Assembly: GCA_029858565.1 (NCBI GenBank)
Contig: JAOUEV010000034.1
Span: forward strand, 1 to 37,843
Length of the DNA stretch: 37,843 nucleotides
Direction: 5' to 3'
Origin: Nitrospirota bacterium
GTDB taxonomy: Bacteria > Nitrospirota > UBA9217
Made by a program: the position numbers and the translations under genes. The notes beneath the pieces are model-generated. The model saw nothing but the letters and a program-made list of their open reading frames with translations, made no database searches and had not been told where the DNA came from. Shown one piece after another: positions 27,341-28,237 of this stretch (its first letter is position 1; each line of letters starts with the position of its first letter).

Positions 27341-27696
27341 GGGAAAACCCGGAAACCATGATCTCAGGACCTGGCAAAAGAAACCGTTAGTAAGAGAACC
27401 AAAGCTCTTGCTTTTTTCATCCCTCATGGTACGTTTCGAGCATTCTGCCGCATGCCAGATTGCTACTTTTTGCAACTCAGGTTCATCATTGCTTCTTCTT
27501 TATATATATAATAGTGACGTTCATGCTCTGGATGACTACGTTCGGAAGAGCAGGAATTCCAGTCTGCCATCGGCTCCTGTCACTGCAACAACGGTTATAA
27601 GCGATAAGTATTCCCACGTTTACCGCGTCCTGTTTGCAACTCTCGTCCGTGAGCCTTTCTTTGCCTCTTGCCCCCTTCCCCATCTACGAACTTCTT
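27341..27696. other. Intergenic region without a visible gene
   Basis: No ORF with a credible ribosome site lies here. A short AT tract (TATATATATAAT) lies at about 27500-27512. A weak hairpin with T-run (AAGAG...CTCTTGCTTTTTT) near 27390-27418 could be a terminator or small RNA end, but I would not call it. Confidence 0.4.
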
Positions 27697-27729
27697 CCTA
27701 GGAACTATTACTCTCCGGCCTAGGAACTA
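27697..27729 (+). promoter_or_regulatory. Paired direct repeats, probable activator site
   Basis: CCTAGGAACTA occurs at 27697-27707 and 27719-27729, exactly 22 bp apart, two turns of the helix. The repeats lie about 48 and 70 bases before the expected transcription start of the downstream small membrane protein gene. This position suits a dimeric transcription activator. Confidence 0.6.
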
Positions 27730-27736
27730 ATCCCAC

Positions 27737-27765
27737 TTACCCTTTTCCCCTTCCGGGAGTATGCT
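27737..27765 (+). promoter_or_regulatory. Candidate promoter for the small membrane protein
   Basis: A weak -35 (TTACCC, 27737-27742), a 17-base spacer and a -10 like TATGCT (27760-27765). A poor -35 next to the direct repeats fits an activator-dependent promoter. Start would be near 27772. Confidence 0.4.
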
Positions 27766-27803
27766 CTAATCAACAAGAAGAGAAAACCACCCACAAGGAG
27801 GGA

Positions 27804-28178
27804 ATGAACATGTTGACCAACGGCGGAACCACAGTAAAGGCAGGAACCTACTGGAATCTGGCGAACGGGAACAGGGTGCAGATGGAGCAGGAAGGCAGCC
27901 TTCCCGGCGACAGCAAGACCCGGTACATCAAGGCATCGGCGGCAGTGATGCTCATGGCAGCCCCGGCGATCGGCCTGGTCTTCGCAATGTTCCTCCCCTT
28001 CATCGGGATCGCGATGTCCTTAAGCCTGGTCGCCAGGAAACTGGCGCAGGGCGTGGCATCGGCGGCTGCAGGCAGCATGTCCTTCGGGTGGCGGCCCATC
28101 GAGGCCTATCTTGCGGGCAGGAAGAACAGGAAGGCTTCGAGAGCGAAGAAGGAGACCAAGGACAGCGGGAAGCAGTAA
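27804..28178 (+). CDS. Small membrane protein of unknown function
   Basis: I do not recognise a named family. The product is 124 residues: an N-terminal soluble part (NGGTTVKAGTYWNLANGNRV, then EQEGSLPGDSKTRYIKA), one or two membrane segments at about 47-75 (ASAAVMLMAAPAIGLVFAMF, then LPFIGIAMSLSLVARKL) and a strongly basic tail (GRKNRKASRAKKETKD). A good AAGGAGGG precedes two nearby ATGs, 27804 and 27810; the second has the better spacing. The gene stands alone between a candidate activator site and a strong terminator, so it is probably transcribed alone and under specific control. I recall similar short proteins in Geobacter-like genomes, none characterised. Confidence 0.75.
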   Translation: MNMLTNGGTTVKAGTYWNLANGNRVQMEQEGSLPGDSKTRYIKASAAVMLMAAPAIGLVFAMFLPFIGIAMSLSLVARKLAQGVASAAAGSMSFGWRPIEAYLAGRKNRKASRAKKETKDSGKQ

Positions 28179-28203
28179 CCGCACTTTGGCGGGACATGAT
28201 GAA

Positions 28204-28237
28204 GCGGGACAGGTCAACGACCTGTCCCGCTTTTTTT
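28204..28237 (+). terminator. Rho-independent terminator
   Basis: GCGGGACAGGTC (28204-28215) and GACCTGTCCCGC (28219-28230) form a perfect 12-bp stem with loop AAC, followed by seven Ts. It ends the transcript of the small membrane protein. Confidence 0.93.

Follow-up and report, generated by a model that had tools for sequence, protein, structure and literature searches.

A small membrane-protein gene of a Nitrospirota bacterium and its probable place in a narrow respiratory regulon of the NarL type

The small membrane-protein gene considered here probably (with a likelihood of about 60%) belongs to a narrow respiratory regulon under the two-component system encoded on contig C122 of its own genome, its product serving the corresponding complex as a subunit or assembly factor. 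The gene lies in the window, i.e. the whole stretch of 37,843 nucleotides analysed, which is contig C82 of a host genome of 3.9 Mb in 144 contigs. On this reading, an orphan small gene can be assigned to a defined regulon of uncultured bacteria, for which the operator, the probable regulator, the kinase, and the target complex can be named. For the regulation, comparative support is good; the role of the protein is inferred.

The locus and its promoter

The elements of the locus are the following:

27685 to 27702, + strand: upstream dyad TACGAACTTCTTCCTAGG, degenerate (PWM score 17.7), overlapping repeat 1
27697 to 27707, + strand: repeat 1, CCTAGGAACTA, exact match, distal operator half-site
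27719 to 27729, + strand: repeat 2, CCTAGGAACTA, exact match
27721 to 27738, + strand: proximal operator dyad TAGGAACTAATCCCACTT, with its centre at about -43.5 relative to the presumed transcription start
27760 to 27765, + strand: -10-like box TATGCT, 21 bp downstream of the proximal dyad
27795 to 27802, + strand: ribosome-binding site AAGGAGGG, assigned from the sequence
27804 to 28178, + strand: small membrane-protein gene (ORF), start probably at 27810 (122 aa)
28201 to 28237, + strand: intrinsic terminator, stem 28201-28233 with 15 pairs, then a T run

A first-pass annotation had described a solitary gene for an unrecognised protein of 124 residues, equipped with a paired operator, a strong ribosome site, and a terminator. 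The two exact repeats, 22 bp apart upstream of the gene, as well as the ribosome site and the terminator were recovered as described. The ORF was confirmed on the + strand, but its length was probably overstated, since the spacing of the ribosome site suits the ATG at 27810 (122 aa) better than that at 27804 (124 aa) and a paralog (L003) has lost the first ATG and keeps only the equivalent of the second. The 22-bp pairing of the repeats also stands, but the repeats are only parts of a larger element: they represent half-sites of tandem dyads (TAGGAA-N4-TTCC) that are 22 or 23 bp apart. A third, degenerate dyad (27685) is found 14 bp further up, so that the true element extends beyond the two repeats; the same stretch also occurs in L002, L040, L041, L042, L043, and L044.

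No TTGACA-type -35 box or other match to the -35 consensus is present at the window promoter. Two further promoter types were considered and rejected. For control by sigma-54 (rpoN is encoded within the window), no -24/-12 element was seen by eye; the conserved -10-like box argues against this type. For an ECF sigma factor with GGAAC serving as -35 box, no suitable -10 box was seen by eye about 16 bp downstream.

The exact 11-mer CCTAGGAACTA occurs four times in the 3.9-Mb genome, exclusively at the window gene and its 94%-identical paralog, and the reversed-pattern control occurs nine times. Since the 11-mer is thus no commoner than its control, one could regard the repeats as duplicated by chance or neutrally, next to a gene that is an ordinary orphan; it is, however, the placement and not the sequence alone that is rare. 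This explanation, which we regard as highly improbable, is refuted by the fact that families and even phyla share the position, the spacing, and the sequence of the sites.

Form and conservation of the operator

Aligned promoters share the arrangement TAGGAA-N4-TNCC, 22/23 bp, TAGGAACTTCTTCCAATT, 21 bp, TATNNT-NN-AATCA. The proximal site is present in 50 of the 52 promoters inspected, which comprise 46 of other genomes and six of the own genome. In 43 of the 50, a TAGGAA-like half-site with no more than one mismatch lies above it, at a distance of 22 bp (n=33) or 23 bp (n=10), and in 43 of the 50 a TANNNT box follows the proximal dyad at exactly 21 bp. The first promoter count left out 15 of the 61 loci obtained by profile search, namely five that begin at a contig edge and ten that were examined afterwards. 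Counting all 61, the site is present at 50 of the 56 loci remaining once the five contig-edge cases are set aside, and it was found at none of L080, L083, L088, L093, L097 (with just 181 bp of upstream sequence), and L100. A site thus accompanies the homologues at most testable loci, contrary to the absence of the repeat pair upstream of homologues by which the first-pass annotation would have been refuted; its view of a dedicated, carefully controlled promoter was right.

Comparison with shuffled sequences points in the same direction. With a PWM that included the own genome, 46 sites scoring at least 20 were detected in L040-L099 (about 1.5 million positions, both strands) versus one in Markov-shuffled copies. 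When the own genome was left out of the training of the PWM, the proximal dyad of the window scores 18.6, a value reached by none of 500 shuffles, and each of the six own promoters is equalled or outscored by at most one of 500 shuffles. The pattern TAGGAANNNNTTCCNAT, allowing one mismatch, occurs at 19 places versus 14 for reversed controls; it is therefore too loose, and a 78-position model was used instead.

The dyads may correspond to sites of NarL-type regulators. The site of L076, TAGGAAGTTCTTCCTA, perfectly fits a 7-2-7 inverted repeat with a 2-bp gap, and in the commonest form of the operator, TAGGAAC-TT-CTTCCAA, one symmetric pair is broken (39/41 rows). Half-sites of NarL itself follow the consensus TACYYMT, unlike the TAGGAA found here, and the regulon described below is very small by comparison. 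NarL sites are 7-2-7 inverted repeats, and NarL-activated Escherichia coli promoters (ogt, yeaR) show this architecture, ogt with tandem sites, the inner of which is centred at -44.5 (PMC7419079). The spacing of the tandem differs, with 22/23 bp here versus 33 bp for the ogt sites at -77.5 and -44.5.

The regulon within the genome and across genomes

A genome-wide search for the operator, as recommended at first pass, pointed to a narrow regulon. A sequence-only model (R1), built from 41 promoters, none of them from the own genome, places the window promoter first in that genome (E 1e-7), followed by those of C40 and C47 (ranks 1-3 spanning E 1e-7 to 8e-7), and on rank 4 the promoter of C74, whereas C122 (E 0.0094) and C85 (E 0.078) are weaker. 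Three partial matches lacking family genes, C40:7046, C109:1232, and C109:15678, outscore C122 and C85. The last of these (L151, G000:C109:15678; E 0.0086) follows the gene of a different NarL-type regulator at a distance of about 220 bp and is perhaps a related operator.

Across 99 genomes, an R1 match with E<=1e-4 is found in 16 and in none of the other 83, and the same 16 genomes encode an ortholog of the regulator c9 (E<=1e-86, the next genome reaching 4e-60). These are not independent events, as 13 of the 16 genomes belong to one family, and the co-occurrence follows partly from the place of the regulator gene inside the operon. One R1 match below 1e-4 (G010, C91) has no adjoining family gene; the site of the family operon in the same genome, near a run of N, reaches a PWM score of 27.8 and an R1 value of 6e-4. 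Weaker R1 matches (E 9e-4 to 0.004) were observed in G055, G038, and G089, with no family gene recognised alongside. Besides c0 genes, the operator is found at the promoters of the c1-c2 operons in G006 and G009, as well as at the fusion promoter of G001; on C104 of G006, a 13-haem cytochrome c gene lies divergent to the R1 match.

The candidate regulator and its kinase

The gene c9 is located in one of the operator-bearing operons. According to Pfam, the proteins of L046 comprise a receiver plus GerE DNA-binding domain protein and a HisKA_3 kinase, i.e. a NarL/FixJ-type two-component system, and the own-genome regulator on C122 (12060-12707) is 67% identical to that of L046. The residues of the predicted recognition helix, which we take to be the DNA-contacting ones by analogy with NarL, read AHQ in nearly all genomes with TAGGAA (or TAAGAA) operators, AHF in three Deltaproteobacterial genomes with symmetric TAGGGA-N4-TCCC, AHY in one genome with symmetric TAGGTA-N4-TACC, and AHH in two, G111 (with L056) and G049 (with TAGGAT). 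One-sided TAGGTA half-sites coincide with the AHQ helix (L046/G010 and L098/G117), so that only symmetric operator changes track the helix. Such matched natural variants of operator and regulator form a resource for studying DNA recognition by NarL-type proteins. Covariation within the dyad is thin, and its evidence is supporting, not decisive: double changes occur in five of 41 rows at one column pair, and the score is reached by 5/500 shuffles and exceeded by four of six slid controls. The Acidobacterial L080 and the Rokubacterial L083 encode related regulators, but no operator site was found there.

A single CXXCH motif precedes the HAMP domain in the kinases of L046 (10767-12608), L056, L061, and L080; the own-genome kinase (L144:12718-14529) carries CXXCH as well, and those of L051, L062, and L083 are devoid of it. 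Judged by this motif, a c-type haem might act as the sensor, and the kinase may respond to a haem-based or redox signal.

The Hmc-like operon

Gene maps were drawn for 53 loci (49 of the 61 profile-search loci plus four from the own genome), many of which are cut by contig ends. The genes recur in the following order, with the promoter between c4 and c0a; the counts refer to mapped loci:

c3: protease-like, Peptidase_M56/M48, 22/53
c4: about 176 aa, no family, 22/53
c0a: the small-protein family of the window
c0b: second family member with HmcD-like start
c5: 4-haem cytochrome c, 19/53
c6: HmcB-like, 17/53
c7: HmcC-like NrfD protein, 18/53
c1: 13-haem cytochrome c, 28/53
c2: cytochrome b, 25/53
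c8: Cache-HAMP-HisKA_3 kinase, 9/53
c9: receiver-GerE regulator, 8/53

In G071 the whole gene set is contiguous. In many genomes, the small-protein gene opens this Hmc-like redox operon, which is closed by the Cache sensor kinase and the NarL-type regulator, and at some mapped loci, the window among them, the small-protein gene stands without the genes of the complex. The operon of the own genome, on C122, has the order c3-c4-sites-c1-c2-c8-c9, contains no c0 gene, and shows TAGGAA and TAAGAA sites 22 bp apart; the promoter of a gene fusion on C74 has one exact site. In G089, which belongs to the same genus as G071, a decaying copy of the operon was noticed (L256:2333-5601), with c9 split into two ORFs and c1 and c8 truncated. 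No operator site was seen in the 16-kb stretch with the broken operon; the loss of both regulator and site is expected if regulator and operators decay together.

The general role in a membrane or stress response offered by the first-pass annotation finds no pointer here; operator signature and neighbours of the relatives lead instead to an Hmc-like multihaem complex and a NarL-type two-component system. As in the Hmc complex of Desulfovibrio vulgaris (HmcA-F), an HmcB-like Fe-S protein and an HmcC-like NrfD protein are combined with multihaem cytochrome c and cytochrome b; a small membrane protein that starts like HmcD and linked regulators are further common features. For the regulators there is a precedent in rrf1/rrf2, which regulate hmc expression in D. 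vulgaris (PMC10924467). Unlike in that complex, 13-haem and 4-haem cytochromes c take the place of the 16-haem HmcA, kinase and NarL-type regulator are encoded inside the operon, and there is an extra small-protein family able to stand alone. In the operon maps, made without an HmcF-specific model, no HmcF-like gene was recognised. The HmcB-like and HmcC-like proteins of L071 miss the curated NCBIfam cut-offs (411.8 vs 420 and 423.3 vs 550 bits, respectively) and are therefore relatives, and by the curators' rule no members. Likewise, c0b reaches 29.1 bits with the HmcD model (NF045712, cut-off 34), below the cut-off, with the HmcD-like stretch in its first 33 residues; the window protein does not match this model.

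In L144 (17121-18809), L071 (4259-5905), and others, a BlaR1/HtpX-like protease gene and the gene for the protein of about 176 aa precede the promoter. The recurrence of these two genes, each at 22 of the 53 mapped loci, would fit a different regulator that binds as a repressor and is tied to the M48/M56 protease in the manner of BlaR1-BlaI. We consider this quite unlikely: no BlaI-like gene was recognised in the gene maps (drawn without a BlaI-specific model), the absent -35 box and the dyad near -43 suit an activator, and no good site exists upstream of the own-genome protease gene, where the best two-mismatch match is TATGCAGCGTTTCCGAT; moreover, it is a NarL-type recognition helix that tracks the symmetric operator changes.

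The small protein

In Pfam, NCBIfam, and PHROGs, the window protein matches no family with a score at the cut-off and was in this sense rightly called unrecognised. A profile search against the PDB gave no convincing relative (best E 0.085), and Foldseek with the predicted model found no fold match at E<=0.001. Weak Pfam matches to ATP1G1_PLM_MAT8 and M50 were discarded as far below the cut-off. A viral origin was also considered and dropped, as none of 17 pattern candidates from viral_contigs is a relative and no PHROG matches the window protein. A literature search at title and abstract level, with partial journal coverage, yielded no description of the small-protein family or the operator.

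The gene is not solitary, as had been assumed: three further stand-alone paralogs, on C40 (94% identity), C85 (64%), and C47 (56%), bring the stand-alone copies to four, and a fusion is encoded on C74. The alignment of the C40 copy with the window spans 589 bases; it starts just upstream of the operator and extends as far as the terminator. In the fusion, the N-terminal domain and hydrophobic segment of the small protein precede a 13-haem cytochrome c.

The predicted model, based on a family alignment (A3), has a mean pLDDT of 85.9 and a pTM of 0.52. It shows an N-terminal beta domain (residues 4-43), for which a zinc-ribbon ancestry is conceivable, followed by a long helix (46-96) that holds the membrane segment, in which G57 and P65 are invariant. 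The C-terminal tail is basic and helical. The fusion requires the N-terminus to be inside, and the basic tail suggests that the C-terminus of the stand-alone form is inside as well; the membrane segment might therefore be re-entrant.

The place of the gene in the operons, its HmcD-like partner, and the gene fusion with a 13-haem cytochrome speak for a role in the Hmc-like complex, in which the protein probably acts as a small subunit in the inner membrane or helps in assembly. Small membrane proteins can also act on kinases, as MgrB does on PhoQ, and the occurrence of the operator at most loci and the stand-alone genes of the own genome would be in line with a protein that modulates its own sensor kinase by feedback and whose copy number sets the gain. 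Such a function seems unlikely, since in many operons the gene sits among structural genes, adjoining HmcD-like and cytochrome genes, and in C74 the N-terminal part of the protein forms a fusion with a 13-haem cytochrome.

Proposed mechanism

The Cache-HAMP-HisKA_3 kinase and the NarL-type regulator encoded at the end of the C122 cytochrome operon would most likely activate the window promoter. The regulator would bind tandem dyads of the 7-2-7 type (TAGGAAC-NN-STTCCNA), 22 bp apart with the inner one centred near -43, and would recruit RNA polymerase to a promoter without -35 box. Activation is the likelier mode because of the dyad near -43.5, a position that assumes a start 7 bp after the -10 box, together with the lack of a -35 match. 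The product would then join or assemble a quinone-cytochrome complex of the Hmc-like type with 13-haem cytochrome c and cytochrome b. In the own lineage, the small-protein gene appears to have left the operon and to have given rise to several stand-alone copies, all controlled by the same switch. A broader and tentative idea is that the small membrane subunits are interchangeable, that they escaped from the multihaem operon in one Nitrospirota lineage and multiplied as operator-gene-terminator units, and that a haem-bearing Cache sensor with its NarL-type regulator might retune one complex via several variant subunits at once. In practice, these results also supply a marker by which the Hmc-like complex could be located.

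Distribution of relatives and further observations

The profile search for homologues, also proposed at first pass, returned the 61 family loci from GTDB species genomes, mostly in Nitrospirota MAGs and a few in Deltaproteobacteria, with one locus each filed as Acidobacteria, Rokubacteria, Actinomycetota, and Deferribacterales; a Rhodospirillales locus is doubtful. At the protein level, 16 of 99 genomes, the own genome included, have a match with E<=0.001, the one in G027 being doubtful as it runs through several stop codons. A riboswitch was considered for the leader of the fusion operon, where no Rfam match was obtained. The fusion protein itself (L101:7155-8969) displays, by eye, a signal-peptidase-like site (VHA-SG) after the membrane segment. 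In G001, a genome of the same genus, two small-protein genes are arranged in tandem (L050:6980-7995), each with its own operator.
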